Below are positions 53,397 through 58,621 of a DNA stretch of 64,000 nucleotides, piece after piece (positions within the stretch are counted from its first letter, which is position 1; every line of letters starts with the position of its first letter). This stretch comes from Leptolyngbya sp. KIOST-1. Lineage in GTDB: Bacteria > Cyanobacteriota > Cyanobacteriia > Phormidesmidales > Phormidesmidaceae. The notes under the pieces were generated by a model that saw only the letters and a program-made list of their open reading frames with translations, was not told where the DNA came from and made no database searches. The translations under genes and the position numbers were made by a program. The DNA is taken from contig NZ_JQFA01000004.1 of NCBI RefSeq assembly GCF_000763385.1, forward strand, positions 186,001-250,000. Direction: 5' to 3'.

Positions 53397-53726
53397 CTAC
53401 TCCAGAGCATTCCAGAGTTTGTCGGGGACCGTACGCGGCTTGCGTGAGACCAGGTTGGGTTTAAAGATAGCCGGATTAGAGCCATCTTCTACCACCAGGA
53501 AGCCCCCGGCCAGCAGCTTATCCACCAGGGCCTGGGCAGCGGCGGCTTCCATCTGGGTGTGGGCAACAATATCCGCCAGGGAGGCCCTCCGCTGACGCAC
53601 CAGCCAGTTCACCAGGGTGCGCTCCGGATCCGCGAGACCCAGCAGATCGGTCATTGTTTTGGGTCCGGCACCAGCACCTGGCTGCGGCCGGGGGGTGGGG
53701 CGTTCCCCAGGGAGGGGGTGAGTCAT
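53397..53726 (-). CDS. Winged-helix-like small protein (hypothetical)
   Basis: 109 residues. After a Pro-rich disordered start, residues 25-85 fit a MarR/winged-helix pattern: LVNWLVRQRRASLADIVAHT (helix 2), MEAAAAQALVDKLLAGGFLVV (recognition helix and wing). ATG 53726 has GGAG seven bases before it and starts 4 bp after the ParA-like stop codon, so it is translated as part of that unit. A DNA-binding or protein-binding role is likely; the target is unknown. Confidence 0.68.
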   Translation of the reverse strand: MTHPLPGERPTPRPQPGAGAGPKTMTDLLGLADPERTLVNWLVRQRRASLADIVAHTQMEAAAAQALVDKLLAGGFLVVEDGSNPAIFKPNLVSRKPRTVPDKLWNALE

Positions 53727-53730
53727 CGAG

Positions 53731-54510
53731 CTACTCCGTGGCAATGAGTTGGCGAGCTACGATGTGCACCTCCTGACTAAAGGCATGGTCGGGGTGGTGG
53801 AGCCAAAAAATACCGCCGCTGGCTAACTGCAGCATCTCATCGTTTTCATAGAACAGTCCACCGACGGGCACGCCGTACTGGGTTTGCACTTTGTCGATCA
53901 GCGTTTCGCGGGGGTAGATGTCGGGGGCCTTGTTGACCAGCAGGGTGATGTCGGGCACATCGAGCTTCTGGGCCACCTCAAGGGTGACGGCGGTGCCCAG
54001 AAAGTCCTGACGGTCGGGACGCAGGATGATCACCATGCGATCGGAAATGGCAATGGACAGCAGGGTTTCCTCGTTGAGGCCGGGGTGAGTGTCAATAAAC
54101 AGGTAATCGAGGTTAAGTTGATCGATCAGGTCGTGAAAGCCATCATTGAGCAGGCCAACGTCGTAGCCTTCCCGCAGAATTTTGGCGATTTCACCCGCCT
54201 TAAGGCTGGAGGGAACCAGGTACACCGTACCGCTGATCTCGGCGGAAGACCCCTCTGCGGTGACAACATGGGAGGTCACATCGTAGGCGGCATCCTTGGC
54301 GCTGCACTTGTCCCACAGGTAGTCATTGAGGGAGTGGGTAAAGTCTTCTTCGTCGAGGCCAAACAGCACGTGAATGCCAGGGGACTGAATATCGGTATCG
54401 ACAATGGCAACGCGCTTGCCCTGGCTGGCCACTGCCGTAGCAATGTTCGCCGTGAGGTTTGATTTGCCAGTGCCGCCGCGAAAGGAGTGAATCGAAATAA
54501 CCTGCGCCAT
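53731..54510 (-). CDS. ParA/MinD-like ATPase with altered signature lysine
   Basis: 259 residues from ATG 54510. The deviant Walker A motif reads SFRGGTGKSNLT: the P-loop lysine is present but the signature lysine of KGGxGK is Arg. IVDTDIQSPGIHVLFGL is the switch I region and FIDTHPGLNEET the Walker B/switch II. LLVNKAPDIYPRETL follows. Proteins of this type position cellular cargo or regulate by dimerisation. Partners are the downstream winged-helix gene and, divergent with 128 bp between, a tail-anchored cyclic-nucleotide domain protein. Confidence 0.86.
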   Translation of the reverse strand: MAQVISIHSFRGGTGKSNLTANIATAVASQGKRVAIVDTDIQSPGIHVLFGLDEEDFTHSLNDYLWDKCSAKDAAYDVTSHVVTAEGSSAEISGTVYLVPSSLKAGEIAKILREGYDVGLLNDGFHDLIDQLNLDYLFIDTHPGLNEETLLSIAISDRMVIILRPDRQDFLGTAVTLEVAQKLDVPDITLLVNKAPDIYPRETLIDKVQTQYGVPVGGLFYENDEMLQLASGGIFWLHHPDHAFSQEVHIVARQLIATE

Positions 54511-54638
54511 GGGACTTTCACCTCTGCCAGATAAACAACGAAGCTCTACGCGGGAATAGCTCACCCGAGTGAGCGATAGAACTGGGCCTAGTATGGGAAC
54601 AATAGCCGCGAAACTAACGCGCTGCGCGAAACTTATCT

Positions 54639-55151
54639 ATGGAAAAACTCACCTATTCCCCAGGCGACGTGATCTATCGGGAAGGAGACGAAAGCCAGCA
54701 GGTTTATCTGATCAAGTCGGGCCGCATCGATCTGGTGGACACATACCCGGAGACCGGTCAGGTAGTCGCGAAATCCCTAGGCCCAGGGCGAGTTTTTGGC
54801 GAGGTAGAGCTGATCGATCGCCGCCCCCGATCTTCCACGGCCCAGGCCCGCGAGGAGGCCAAAATCGTAATTTTCTCCCATGACGAAATCATGGATATGG
54901 TGTTTGAAAACCCTGAAAAAAGTCTGATTTTAGCCCGTGATGTGTTTGACCGGCTGCGGCAGCTCTACAGCGCCGACAGCCTGGACGGGGAACTGACCAA
55001 GCTGCGCGAGGAGATGCACGAAACCATTAAGTCGGCGGTGATTAGCCATGAGGCGCGGGTGGTCAAGAGCCACAACGGCATGGCGGCGATCGCGCTTCCG
55101 GTGGTGCTGCTGATTGCTATTGTCGTAGGTATGCAGATCTATTTGCACTAG
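54639..55151 (+). CDS. Tail-anchored cyclic-nucleotide-binding domain protein
   Basis: 170 residues. Residues 1-115 form a cNMP-binding beta-roll: YSPGDVIYREGDESQQVYLIKSG at the start and GRVFGEVELIDRRPRSSTAQA in the phosphate-binding position (FGExxLxxxxxRSxT-like, so ligand binding is plausible). A helix links to a single C-terminal membrane segment (about 146-166, IALPVVLLIAIVVGM), leaving four residues outside. It would be a tail-anchored protein facing the cytoplasm. It has no HTH, so it is not a Crp regulator. A strong terminator follows at 55190. Confidence 0.85.
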   Translation: MEKLTYSPGDVIYREGDESQQVYLIKSGRIDLVDTYPETGQVVAKSLGPGRVFGEVELIDRRPRSSTAQAREEAKIVIFSHDEIMDMVFENPEKSLILARDVFDRLRQLYSADSLDGELTKLREEMHETIKSAVISHEARVVKSHNGMAAIALPVVLLIAIVVGMQIYLH

Positions 55152-55189
55152 GCAGCGGCCCATTGCGGCAATGAATGGCTTTAACAGAT

Positions 55190-55229
55190 AAAAGCTGCGG
55201 ATAGAGGACATCCGCAGCTTTTGTTTTTT
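55190..55229 (+). terminator. Terminator between the cNMP-domain gene and small membrane gene (copy 1)
   Basis: A 13-bp perfect stem AAAAGCTGCGGAT / ATCCGCAGCTTTT with a 7-base loop, followed by GTTTTTT. It ends the plus-strand gene and, with its A/T-rich left side, may also end the converging small gene. The second copy lies at 55893-55932. Confidence 0.85.
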
Positions 55230-55262
55230 AGCTTAAATCTAACTATTAAAGATCGATTTTAT

Positions 55263-55448
55263 TTAGTATTTCCAGGCCAAGTAAATAACCGAGGCAAAGG
55301 CAATTAGGGTGGCGATACCGATGTAGACCATCTTAAACTCGTGCCCCTCAATCGCATGTTCTAATTCCTGGTCGAGGTCCTGGCGAAACTGTTGAATTTT
55401 GTCGCCTGCCTGGGGGTCGTTGATAGATTTATAGGAAGGTTTGGCCAT
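55263..55448 (-). CDS. Small single-span membrane protein, copy 1
   Basis: 61 residues from ATG 55448 (MAKPSYKSINDPQAGDK). A charged helix (QFRQDLDQELEHAIEGHEF) is followed by one membrane segment (VYIGIATLIAFASVIYLAW) and a KY end. I do not recognise the family; it resembles short thylakoid-type proteins only in architecture. A longer frame to 55496 is possible but less likely. Identical to the second copy, including its upstream region, so both could be expressed. Confidence 0.7.
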   Translation of the reverse strand: MAKPSYKSINDPQAGDKIQQFRQDLDQELEHAIEGHEFKMVYIGIATLIAFASVIYLAWKY

Positions 55449-55892
55449 TATCTTCGCTCTCAGATATGCCCCATTAGCGTTCCCGCAAATACCCAAAAAT
55501 CACGGCGTCCTGACTGGTAGTTATACCTGATCCAGGGGCACTTTAGAAACAACGTTTGATAAAAACTGCCGCGTTTTTAACCATAGCCCTACCTGGACGT
55601 TCGGGGGGTATCAACGTAAAGCGGGACAAAGGGAGCTTCAGTGCAACGTATCAATAAGCACCCTATCGAGAAGAGATAAAAGGCTCTGCGGCAGCGCCCA
55701 GAGCCCGGTATCGTTACCGGTACGAATTCAAAACGGTTGAGCTTGAGTCTCAACAGGCAGGGGCTGTGCCCTGCCAGGCTGCAACGCCGGACGCACCCCC
55801 GAGTTCTTCCCCAGACGGGGGCCATGCTTGACGTCGGGTTGTGACTGATGGTGGCTAGCGCTTCGGCTCTGCCCTGCGCCTCTTTAACAGAT

Positions 55893-55932
55893 AAAAGCTG
55901 CGGATAGAGGACATCCGCAGCTTTTGTTTTTT
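55893..55932 (+). terminator. Terminator hairpin, copy 2
   Basis: Same stem and U-tract as at 55190-55229, carried within the duplication. Confidence 0.8.
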
Positions 55933-55965
55933 AGCTTAAATCTAACTATTAAAGATCGATTTTAT

Positions 55966-56151
55966 TTAGTATTTCCAGGCCAAGTAAATAACCGAGGCAA
56001 AGGCAATTAGGGTGGCGATACCGATGTAGACCATCTTAAACTCGTGCCCCTCAATCGCATGTTCTAATTCCTGGTCGAGGTCCTGGCGAAACTGTTGAAT
56101 TTTGTCGCCTGCCTGGGGGTCGTTGATAGATTTATAGGAAGGTTTGGCCAT
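55966..56151 (-). CDS. Small single-span membrane protein, copy 2
   Basis: Same 61-residue product as the gene at 55263-55448, without visible difference. This copy lies directly beside the insertion sequence (157 bp from its left end). Before the insertion this gene and devB would have been divergent neighbours. Confidence 0.7.
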   Translation of the reverse strand: MAKPSYKSINDPQAGDKIQQFRQDLDQELEHAIEGHEFKMVYIGIATLIAFASVIYLAWKY

Positions 56152-56444
56152 TATCTTCGCTCTCAGATATGCCCCATTAGCGTTCCCGCAAATACCCAAA
56201 AATCACGGCGTCCTGACTGGTAGTTATACCTGATCCAGGGGCACTTTAGAAACAACGTTTGATAAAAACTGCCGCGTTTTTAACCATAGCCCTACCTGGA
56301 CGTTCGGGGGGTATCAACGTAAAGCGGGACAAAGGGAGCTTCAGTGCAACGTATCAATAAGCACCCTATCGAGAAGAGATAAAAGGCTCTGCGGCAGCGC
56401 CCAGAGCCCGGTATCGTTACCGGTACGAATTCAAAACGGGAACG

Positions 56445-58049
56445 ATGACCTCTACTATACGAGAGCGGCGACAACAGGTGGCCGAATGTTTGAGAACGCA
56501 AGGTCGAGCGGCGCTGAGTGCGCTAGCTGAGGCGACGGGATTGAGCCGCAGCAGTGTTCATCGCCATCGGCAGTCGATAGACCGCGCTGAGCAACACCCT
56601 GAGTCAGGCTGGTGGGAAACAGCGGTGGGATATCCGTGGCTAGTACGCCTGGTGATAGCGGTGGTGTATCACTTTGGGATTAAGCAAGGGGTTGGAGCCG
56701 AGAGCCTATCGGCGTTCTTTAAGGCGATTCATCTGGACACTCACATGGGTAGTTCGGCCACAGCATTACGACAACTCAAACATCGAGTGGAGACAGCTAT
56801 CGTTGAGTACGGCAGCGCTCAAGCTGAGCGCTGCCAACCGACTGAGGGCCAAGGGGTCTGGTTGGGGGCCGATGAAACCTTTTTTGGATTACCCACCCTG
56901 GTGCTGATGGAGTTGGCCAGCGGCTTTATTTTCACCGAAGTCGAAACGAAAGAGCGCACCTACAGCACCTGGAAAGCGCAGCTCCCACCGGGGTGGGAAT
57001 CAGCTGGATGGACCTGTCATAGCTTGGTCAGCGACGATGCTCGGGCGCTGATTAAATTGGCCACAACCGGCTTAGGCACGGTCAGTGTGGCGGACTTATT
57101 CCATACCCTGCGCAATCTGGGACGACCGCTAGGGCGGAGTCAGGGGCAGCAGTTGGCGCAGTTGGATAAGCAAGCCAGGCAACTGCTGCACCGCCTAAGT
57201 CAAGCGTCTACGGAGGAGACTCAGACAGCCCTTCAGGCTCAGTATGACGCGGTGGTTAACCAGCAACAGCGCGTTATCGAGGACCAACAGCGTTACCGTC
57301 TAACGCGACAGGCCATCAGTCTGAGTGTTCATCCCTTCGAGTTGGAGCGCGCCCAATGGCAACTAGCCACCGACCTATCGACTCGACTGAGTGCCCTACT
57401 GCCCACCCTCAACGCCCTGGCTGCAAACTATGGGGGAGCCTCGGCGGTGGCAGCGGTGGCGACCTTTGAACGCCAGATCCCGGCGTTAGCCCAAGGCGTT
57501 CACGCCTGGTGGCATTGGGTCACTCAAGCCCTATCGACCCAAACCCATGACCCTGAGCTGCAAAACTGGGTCTTAACCGTCCTATTGCCTTGGCTATATT
57601 GGTTGCAGCAAGCCAATAAAACCCGCACCTCTCACCTCAAGCATCGCTACCAGCAGGCCGCTAGTGACGCCTTTGATGCGGTGATGGCCGCTGAGATCAC
57701 CCTCACTCTTCAGCAGGAGGAACTCTTGTGCTGGATTCAATGGGGCCGACGGATGTGTGCCAACTATCAACGCACCTCCTCAGCCGTGGAGGGCCGCAAT
57801 GGCTATCTCGCCCAACGACATCACGCCTCCCGTGGCTTTTCAGCCCAGGCATTGACGGTGCTCACTGTCCTCCACAATTTTGACCTCAAGCGTCCTGATG
57901 GTACGACAGCGGCTCAGCGACTCTTTGGCCAGGAGTTTCCTGACCTCTTTGAGTCCGTCTTGAGTACCTTCACAGAGTTACCTATGCCTAGGCGGTCTTC
58001 TTCGTCACAACTGCCCAATCCCTGGTACGGTCAACCTGTCTCGGCTTAA
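56445..58049 (+). CDS. DUF6399-type transposase
   Basis: 534 residues. An N-terminal helix-turn-helix (TGLSRSSVHRHRQSI) is followed by a catalytic core in which three acidic residues could form a DDE triad: WLGADETFFGLP, SVADLFHTLRNLG and SSAVEGRNGYLAQRHH. The closing region HNFDLKRPDGTTAAQRLFG is typical of DUF6399 proteins. The family-to-IS assignment is mine and moderately sure; the terminal repeats and target duplication around it support a transposase. The frame is intact. The last 20 or so residues are encoded by the right terminal region, which recurs at 58525. Confidence 0.8.
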   Translation: MTSTIRERRQQVAECLRTQGRAALSALAEATGLSRSSVHRHRQSIDRAEQHPESGWWETAVGYPWLVRLVIAVVYHFGIKQGVGAESLSAFFKAIHLDTHMGSSATALRQLKHRVETAIVEYGSAQAERCQPTEGQGVWLGADETFFGLPTLVLMELASGFIFTEVETKERTYSTWKAQLPPGWESAGWTCHSLVSDDARALIKLATTGLGTVSVADLFHTLRNLGRPLGRSQGQQLAQLDKQARQLLHRLSQASTEETQTALQAQYDAVVNQQQRVIEDQQRYRLTRQAISLSVHPFELERAQWQLATDLSTRLSALLPTLNALAANYGGASAVAAVATFERQIPALAQGVHAWWHWVTQALSTQTHDPELQNWVLTVLLPWLYWLQQANKTRTSHLKHRYQQAASDAFDAVMAAEITLTLQQEELLCWIQWGRRMCANYQRTSSAVEGRNGYLAQRHHASRGFSAQALTVLTVLHNFDLKRPDGTTAAQRLFGQEFPDLFESVLSTFTELPMPRRSSSSQLPNPWYGQPVSA

Positions 58050-58404
58050 GTTGATACCCATGTTGAGCTATCTGAAAGCAGGCATCATAGGCTGAAATAT
58101 TGTGGGCGATCGCAATTTCCAACGCCTCACTAACAACCTCTTGAATACCGATTGCTTGTAAGGACAACGCCCTCAATCGAGCCAAACTAGCCTTTGCTTT
58201 ATCCGCCGGATAGTTAGCCCGGCGCACGTACTGCCAGAGCACATTAGCGCATTCGGCAAAGAACAGCTCAGGAACATACAACTCAGTGTCTGGCTGAGTG
58301 CTCAGTTTCTCAAAAAGTGCCTCTGCTTGGGCTGAGCCTTCTTGCTCAATAAAAAGCTTAATGGCAACGCTGGCATCAACCACACAGCGGGTGGGTTCAC
58401 TCAT
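57988..58404 (-). pseudogene. VapC-type PIN toxin, 3' end replaced by IS sequence
   Basis: Open for 138 codons. Residues 1-115 are a VapC PIN domain: VVDASVAIKLFIEQEG (first Asp), FFAECANVLWQYV (Glu), HNISAYDACFQIA (third acidic residue). At 58059/58060 the frame enters the inner right end of the insertion sequence, read backwards, giving a 23-residue tail (GYQLKPRQVDRTRDW...). The expected C-terminal LVTAD segment with the last catalytic Asp is missing. Probably inactive. Its ATG overlaps the vapB fragment as in intact vapBC operons. Confidence 0.78.
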
Positions 58405-58524: not shown

Positions 58525-58621
58525 AGTACCTTCACAGAGTTACCTATGCCTAGGCGGTCTTCTTCGTCACAACTGCCCAATCCCTGGTACGGTCAACCTG
58601 TCTCGGCTTAAGTTGATACCC
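58525..58621 (+). repeat. Outer copy of the IS right end (97 bp)
   Basis: Identical by eye to 57963-58059 with a constant 562-bp offset, including the right terminal inverted repeat. The target duplication CGTTCGGG starts at the next base. Confidence 0.9.

Follow-up and report, generated by a model that had tools for sequence, protein, structure and literature searches.

A MinD/ParA-fold ATPase with arginine for its signature lysine in Leptolyngbya sp. KIOST-1, and the sensor tail found with it: a candidate signalling module

The ATPase and its winged-helix neighbour

The window, as the whole stretch of DNA analysed here is called, comprises 64,000 nucleotides (nt) of Leptolyngbya sp. KIOST-1 (contig NZ_JQFA01000004.1), and the module of interest lies at 53397-55151. 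It consists of a MinD/ParA-fold ATPase in which arginine replaces the signature lysine, here called ParA(R) (53731..54510, minus strand, 259 amino acids), a small winged-helix protein encoded directly behind it (53397..53726, minus strand, 109 amino acids from the ATG), and, facing away across a divergent intergenic region of 128 bp (54511..54638), a protein with a domain that binds cyclic nucleoside monophosphates (cNMP) and a C-terminal membrane helix (54639..55151, plus strand, 170 amino acids). All three proteins have clear relatives elsewhere. In nearly all of the sampled genomes that carry it, ParA(R) is accompanied by sensor proteins that are unrelated in their front parts and share one tail of about 46 residues, and this genome context is strong evidence for an undescribed partnership between tail and ATPase. 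The window is therefore read here as probably holding the ATPase end of a sensor-ATPase signalling module, that is, of an ATPase relay in the broad sense.

The open reading frame (ORF) of the ATPase spans 53731-54564 on the minus strand, and homologues support a start at the ATG at 54510, giving the 259-residue protein MAQVISIHSFRGGTGKSNLT. It matches the Pfam families AAA_31 (7e-16) and ParA (8e-16), its nearest solved chains by sequence are MinD proteins (E about 1e-12), and relatives on plasmid records, where annotated, are labelled 'MinD/ParA family protein'. The AlphaFold model (pLDDT 90.4, pTM 0.91) has the MinD/ParA fold over its full length, with the P-loop lysine and the Walker B aspartate present. 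Its best solved structural matches are MinD (Z 29-30; 1g3q with Z 29.9 and rmsd 2.3 over 236 residues), followed by FlhG and FleN (Z about 26-28), ParA/Soj, BcsQ and McdA; the MinD/ParA fold is seen with Foldseek too. The likeness to MinD and FlhG/FleN thus extends over the whole length and includes the P-loop GKS, but sequence identity to them is only about 16-24%, and ParA(R) goes with tail-bearing sensors and a winged-helix protein, not with MinC/MinE or FleQ. What is absent is the canonical signature lysine of KGGxxK[ST]: in the Walker A segment HSFRGGTGKSN (54457..54489, minus strand, placed by sequence and alignment), Arg11 stands in its position, ahead of the P-loop Lys16.

Searching a public genome set gave relatives of the ATPase in 376 stretches, and the best 80 of these 376, from Cyanobacteria and Chloroflexota, were kept as the 80 loci used below (numbered with L). 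They hold 100 ATPase ORFs with at least 150 aligned residues, a count that excludes the short fragment in L073 and the window's own copies (in the window, L081 and L082). The segment HS[FY]RGGTGKSN is present in 92 of the 100, with at least one such ORF in each of the 80 loci, and the remaining eight are variant paralogues, at least four of them without the P-loop lysine. Among 48 aligned relatives Arg11 is invariant (48/48), as is the Walker B aspartate D140, and K16 is nearly so. A sequencing oddity or decay as the origin of the arginine is ruled out by this invariance across the family. The sequence-only reading, made from the letters of the window, had already described a ParA/MinD-like ATPase with arginine for the signature lysine, and fold, Pfam matches and the RGGTGKS motif all agree with it.

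An arginine at this position is not unique to ParA(R). It is also found in BcsQ of cellulose secretion (motif RGGVGTT, Table 1 of PMC9178275), which differs in that the P-loop lysine kept in ParA(R) is absent from its motif; no cellulose gene was noticed among the ParA(R) neighbours scanned. McdA, which works with McdB in carboxysome positioning, is another cyanobacterial ParA-like ATPase without the signature lysine (excerpts of PMC6328274), but its motif is SGGQGKT (Table 1 of PMC9178275) as against RGGTGKS, and its structural match is lower (Z 24.6). Because McdA and BcsQ, which that review lists as members of the family, also lack the signature lysine, we classify ParA(R) by its fold, as an Arg subfamily of its own and not among the canonical ParA proteins. 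The best NCBIfam match of the window ATPase is NF047398 (KGGVGR-motif AAA ATPase), which at 85.9 bits falls below the cut-off of 90; the first lysine is the one changed to arginine in ParA(R), the second in NF047398. No match to the KGGVGR motif was obtained in the open-access PubMed Central (PMC) literature.

The start codon of the winged-helix gene, the ATG at 53726, lies 4 bp past the stop of the ATPase at 53731, in agreement with the spacing given in the sequence-only reading; an ORF from the TTG at 53744 would overlap the ATPase. Against Pfam the protein shows only a sub-threshold match to MarR_2 (PF12802; 1.3e-4, score 22.5 against a gathering cut-off of 27). With a family model built from ParA(R) neighbours, the domain, which has a conserved C-terminal [IL]W..L[DE], is found in 44 of the 80 loci. 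It stands on the same strand and within 500 nt of 48 of the 92 ParA(R) copies, 38 times downstream and 10 times upstream, in 43 of the 80 loci including Chloroflexota (in L001 and L004 the contigs stop at or just past ParA(R), so that it could not show). The winged helix is fused to the C-terminus of six of the eight variant ATPases but of no canonical one (0 of 92); these fusions occur in L027, L029, L030, L040, L063 and L071, each of which also has an intact ParA(R) copy, and several have a changed P-loop, such as RHGTGCSH. A model of the natural fusion in L063 (pTM 0.85) has a confident region behind a low-confidence linker, with an order of helices and strands like that of a winged helix. 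Strong matches (E<=1e-9) are found in at least 10 of 146 cyanobacterial genomes (G036 at 1.2e-10), nine of these with ParA(R), the figure being a lower bound because some genomes had only 32 first-look candidates scored. The winged helix is a frequent, not an obligatory, partner of ParA(R). The same domain also stands at the N-terminus of three longer ORFs of 918 to 1034 amino acids (L098, which is cut by the contig end, L099:3945-7046, and L100), one of which has WD40 repeats (13 WD40 stretches).

This partnership raises the possibility of a transcription switch, in which an FlhG/FleN-like ParA(R) would hold the winged-helix protein, or release it from DNA, according to the state of a sensor. 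The proximity to 48 of 92 copies and the fusion to six of eight variants are in its favour, as is the presence of FleN and FlhG among the closest folds. However, DNA binding by the winged helix is not evident, because its net charge is only +3 and that of its core is 0, and a strong match is present in only 10 of the 146 genomes. We consider such a switch quite improbable as the explanation of the module.

A sensor tail shared by unrelated proteins

Genes just upstream of ParA(R) often encode sensors that have little in common except a mostly C-terminal tail of about 46 residues, with the consensus L.IEID..K...qVaEIT.sdyF..L..kA..LR. The fronts that carry it are Tll0287-like with HAMP, dCache with HAMP, CHASE2 and soluble cNMP-binding domains, and elsewhere PAS/GAF proteins and a hybrid response regulator. 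In 32 of the 48 tail proteins of the 80 loci, the tail match ends within 30 residues of the C-terminus. Long extensions past it (96 to 394 residues) all belong to one sequence cluster, the tested member of which (L067) is a CHASE2 protein, and this extended CHASE2-type cluster carries further short, weak repeats of the tail motif. The end of the tail is basic in most aligned rows. No Pfam family above cut-off covers the tail in the proteins scanned, where a single weak coiled-coil match (OmpH, in L018) overlaps it. Within 1.5 kb and on the same strand, a tail gene accompanies 35 of the 92 ParA(R) copies in the 80 loci, and in all 35 cases it lies upstream. A description of the tail or of the ParA(R) module was not found in the open-access PMC literature among the matches listed, as judged by title and the start of the abstract, which is weak evidence.

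Six of the 48 tail proteins (L038, L062, L066, L068, L072 and L080), all of them sensors directly upstream of ParA(R), contain a CXXCH motif. The one in L072 is a Pfam-confirmed Tll0287-like protein, and the other five are so assigned by clustering. According to excerpts of a 2026 preprint (PMC12889525), the Tll0287 family is a heme-c Cache domain with properties of a nitric-oxide sensor when fused to signalling parts, and a nitric-oxide or redox input is possible for these six sensors.

The distribution of tail and ATPase over genomes was compared in samples of two phyla. In the sample of 146 cyanobacterial genomes, with cut-offs of E<=1e-45 for ParA(R) and E<=1e-6 for the tail, ParA(R) is present in 22, and the tail is found in exactly those 22, among them the window's own genome. 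In Chloroflexota, both occur in an identical set of 22 of 121 genomes. Joining the two samples, 44 of 44 genomes that have either have both, four of the Chloroflexota (G150, G154, G157 and G158) having already been reached via the ParA(R) loci. Treated as independent draws, an identical set of 22 has a probability of the order of 1e-26 in Cyanobacteria and 1e-24 in Chloroflexota, the true probability being larger because the genomes are related. The sets are nevertheless scattered, ParA(R) and the tail each falling in 18 of 75 cyanobacterial genera. Tail and ATPase lie far apart or on different contigs in G008, G079, G083, G099, G103 and G113, and linkage alone therefore does not explain the co-occurrence. 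When the tail cut-off was relaxed to 0.05, five more cyanobacterial genomes appeared, four of them at E values of 0.004-0.05, which is the chance level for 146 genomes. The fifth, G121 (tail at 7.4e-6), has a CHASE2-tail protein whose gene is followed directly by that of a divergent ParA (1.6e-43, SFRDGTGKST); because these two genes adjoin, the apparent exception is another pair.

The window's own genome contains two ParA(R) genes, that of the window and one at C2:1281752 with an adjoining gene that by eye resembles a glutaminase, and five tail proteins, none of them inside the window. Three of the tails (in a HAMP, a GAF-HAMP-PAS and a PAS-PAS protein) lie near the second ParA(R), no more than about 13 kb away, and another, in a hybrid response regulator, is separated by 24 kb from the ParA(R) of the window. 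The fifth, at C2:3299061, is a dCache-HAMP-tail sensor clustered with a Na+:dicarboxylate symporter and with genes that by eye resemble a racemase, an MFS transporter and a hydrolase. ParA(R) of L011 and L013-L015 is surrounded by the closest relative of this sensor (54-55% identical) together with its cluster (identities of 53-67%, some genes being unmatched in some loci), and the cNMP/membrane gene is there as well in L011, L013 and L014. Because its relative and the cluster surround ParA(R) in these four loci, the C2:3299061 sensor is likely to be the ancestral partner of the window's ParA(R), from which it would since have become separated.

The cyclic-nucleotide-binding protein and its small neighbour

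The divergently encoded protein of the window matches the cyclic-nucleotide-binding family PF00027 (2.6e-20, score 72.6 against a gathering cut-off of 27.5). This is its sole match above cut-off; no C-terminal helix-turn-helix (HTH) was found, the C-terminus being a hydrophobic helix (the most hydrophobic 19-residue window begins at residue 147). A regulator of the CRP/FNR type is ruled out by the missing HTH, and the sequence-only reading, which had described a cNMP-binding protein anchored at its C-terminus and lacking a DNA-binding part, was right in this respect. A stretch resembling a phosphate-binding cassette, FGEVELIDRRPRSSTA (54795..54842, plus strand), keeps its Gly-Glu and its Arg in 14 of 14 aligned relatives; these residues presumably hold the cyclic nucleotide, as in other CNB domains.

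Next to this gene lies a second membrane component that had gone unmentioned in the sequence-only reading: a protein of 61 amino acids with a single helix, encoded at 55263..55448 on the minus strand and again, identically, at 55966..56151 on the same strand. It has a homologue in L103 (from G048) between the cNMP protein and ParA(R): here the cNMP/membrane protein, the small membrane protein, ParA(R) and another cNMP protein follow in order on one strand, and the same 15 kb also contain a dCache-HAMP-tail sensor and an ORF with a cyclase domain. Ahead of their helices, the cNMP/membrane and small membrane proteins have the juxtamembrane pattern A[IV]..HE in common.

The cNMP/membrane gene stands divergently beside ParA(R) in 11 of the 80 loci (L001-L006 and L010-L014; 73-95% identity) and is absent beside it in L007-L009 and L015. 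Conservation of the neighbourhood in relatives was the check proposed with the sequence-only reading, and it is found: besides the winged helix next to the ATPase in 43 loci, the divergent cNMP gene recurs in these 11 (at least 73% identity), with L103 as a same-strand case. The protein occurs in three of the 146 cyanobacterial genomes, one of which is the query's own, and all three have ParA(R). Strong matches (E<=1e-9) to the 61-residue protein come from the same three genomes, its model having contained rows like or from two of them, and a fourth match at E 0.008 is probably due to chance. The cNMP/membrane protein and the small membrane protein are thus a lineage-specific addition (3/146 genomes), and cAMP/cGMP is not the general controller of ParA(R), because the cNMP/membrane protein is present in 3 of 146 genomes as against 22 of 146 for the ATPase.

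Genes for cNMP proteins stand with ParA(R) outside this lineage too. In the cyanobacterium G125 (L121), three adjacent genes on the same strand encode a cNMP-tail protein, ParA(R) and the winged helix; in Chloroflexota, genes for soluble cNMP-tail proteins are found immediately before ParA(R). Because cNMP-tail genes stand immediately before the ATPase in both cases, cyclic nucleotides are a recurrent, not a universal, input. The proposal in the sequence-only reading of signalling controlled by cAMP/cGMP therefore stands in part: signalling is well supported by the context and cNMP is one recurrent input, but the main inputs are tail-bearing sensors outside the window.

It could be argued that in the window itself the cNMP/membrane gene is a mere neighbour, sharing a divergent promoter region with the ATPase and having no functional tie to it. 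Its absence beside ParA(R) in the close relatives L007-L009 and in L015 would fit this, as would its position about 10 kb from ParA(R) in G036. Set against that, all three genomes with the gene (of 146, one being the query's own) also have ParA(R), the genes for the cNMP/membrane protein, the small membrane protein and ParA(R) follow directly upon each other in L103 with the same orientation, and other cNMP proteins recur beside ParA(R). We regard a chance neighbourhood as rather unlikely, while giving it some weight.

A candidate signalling module and its settings

In the reading that we favour, the tail would be a docking and regulatory peptide for ParA(R), and it often appears to stand where a kinase, cyclase or chemoreceptor output domain normally follows HAMP or PAS. 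The state of the sensor would alter how ParA(R) hydrolyses ATP or forms dimers, similar to the effect that partition partners have on ParA through their basic N-terminal peptides, and ParA(R) would pass this state on via the winged-helix protein, as adaptor or effector, and by the location of the complex. The binding, the control of the ATPase and the output are all predicted here from sequence and gene context. In the lineage of the window, a membrane-anchored cNMP receptor and the small membrane protein may have been added, so that the module would answer cAMP (or cGMP) at the membrane, cAMP being the putative signal. ParB (in its N-terminal part) and the tail of ParG both have Arg-bearing regions that stimulate the partner ATPase (excerpts of PMC9178275), and by analogy the basic end of the sensor tail resembles these regions. 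More broadly, many kinds of sensor ending in one tail, an Arg-type MinD/ParA ATPase as carrier and a winged helix as effector may constitute a general, undescribed branch of signalling; this wider claim is tentative, and we put it at somewhat under an even chance. There is a real chance that it represents a distinct class of signal transduction. Should the tail indeed dock on ParA(R), there would be a defined target for those sensors of Cyanobacteria, Chloroflexota and Deinococcus that showed no output domain, and an ATPase of the ParA type would be serving as a general relay of signals. Further members can also be searched for simply by means of the tail.

Several observations weigh against this reading. 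The cNMP protein of the window itself has no tail. Neither tail nor winged helix is close to 23 of the 92 ParA(R) copies, some of these cases being due to contig ends, and the upstream order of tail and ATPase is not universal: a Deinococcus plasmid has its tail gene after those for ParA(R) and the winged helix, and L119, outside the 80 loci, has one tail gene flanked by two ParA(R) genes. Of the 48 winged-helix neighbours, three (L029, L030 and L071, all upstream) are domains fused to the adjoining variant paralogue, 13 of the 22 cyanobacterial genomes with ParA(R) have no strong winged-helix match, and G054 has a strong winged helix but no ParA(R). As for the co-occurrence, the 22 genomes are related to one another and so do not count as 22 separate events. 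The tail model derives from tails close to ParA(R), which could have let an unlinked class of tails escape, and some genomes had their first-look candidates scored only in part. Among the 18 ParA(R)-bearing genomes reached through loci, one (G163) has no tail at 1e-5, and three of the five plasmid stretches described below also yielded none.

A different role for the same parts would be spatial organisation, with ParA(R) as a Par-type positioning ATPase, the tail sensors as its cargo and the tail as an ATPase-stimulating peptide, no signalling output passing through ParA(R). In chemoreceptor placement, TlpT acts as the partner of PpfA. Both there and in the ParC/ParP system a ParA-like ATPase is tied to sensory proteins, PpfA and ParC placing chemoreceptor clusters as McdA places carboxysomes (excerpts of PMC9178275), but theirs are chemotaxis arrays, whereas ParA(R) is a separate Arg subfamily with many sensor classes that share one tail. 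The MinD/ParA fold, the basic tail end in most aligned rows and the several short tail-like repeats of the CHASE2-type proteins are all consistent with positioning. However, the inputs are varied and include soluble cNMP, PAS and partner-switch proteins with no obvious need for placement, and a MinD-type C-terminal amphipathic helix was not seen by eye in the window's ParA(R). The net charge of this protein is -20, which is unusual for a nucleoid-bound ParA. Positioning without signalling is unlikely in our judgement, while sensor positioning and transcription control as such are both compatible with the data.

The settings in which ParA(R) is found differ widely. On plasmids, five stretches of 14.7 kb around a relative were covered, other replicons of those strains being outside the search, and a tail is present in two of them. 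In the Deinococcus stretch, genes for SpoIIE, ParA(R), winged helix, a tail protein and a variant ParA form a row with a second tail protein nearby, and in Rhizobium jaguaris a tail ORF stands immediately before ParA(R). The 14.7-kb stretches in which no tail was found are those of Streptomyces (40% identity), Pseudanabaena and Nostoc. Partner-switch genes (SpoIIE/STAS/HATPase) are near ParA(R) in L017, L108 and L110, and the glycogen genes glgX/glgB are near some copies. In L117 (2595-4063), a slr1658-like gene, a slr1659-like gene (SiaB/SiaC-like) and a gene for a tail protein of 161 amino acids are consecutive, a row that ties the tail to partner switching of the SiaB/SiaC type. ParA(R) of L111, on a Pseudanabaena plasmid, is embedded in a cluster for lanthipeptide / NHLP export that also has a cNMP-binding protein. 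No constant effector was seen among the ParA(R) neighbours, and the set looks like a module inserted into many pathways. A ParB family match was not found among the neighbour proteins scanned, and plasmid partition as a role was set aside on this ground and because the neighbours vary from genome to genome. A purely local, lineage-bound gene set is ruled out by the relatives in Cyanobacteria, Chloroflexota and plasmids.

The nearest published context that was found is that of the vWA-MoxR conflict systems, in which MinD/ParA-like domains are predicted to be inactive and the make-up differs from that of the ParA(R) module (excerpts of PMC7159879). A system of immunity or cell death related to these would be suggested by the MinD/ParA-like and cNMP parts that occur in them (same source), by CHAT-domain genes near some ParA(R) copies, and by cNMP proteins that match Pycsar-type models of PADLOC via their cNMP part (down to 2e-18 in L049, and 7e-8 in P0002). 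However, the best PADLOC match of the window ATPase is 2e-12, to part of a PDC-M28B model, neither the winged helix nor the dCache sensor matches any PADLOC model, and instead of a constant effector the neighbours include a transporter, partner-switch proteins and glycogen enzymes. Defence was set aside as the leading explanation on the PADLOC results, and we consider it very improbable.

It is worth noting that the region beyond the module in the window contains further repeats. The two copies of the small membrane protein gene, each with the hairpin before it, are part of a direct repeat of 300 nt that is 100% identical (55179-55478 and 55882-56181, 703 bp apart). Beyond this lies an ORF of 534 amino acids with a DUF6399 domain (56445-58049), perhaps the gene of a mobile element. 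A second copy of its 3' part is found as a 76-nt repeat at 58525-58600, the region having been compared up to 58600, and the two copies of this repeat bracket most of an ORF with a PIN domain (57988-58404).

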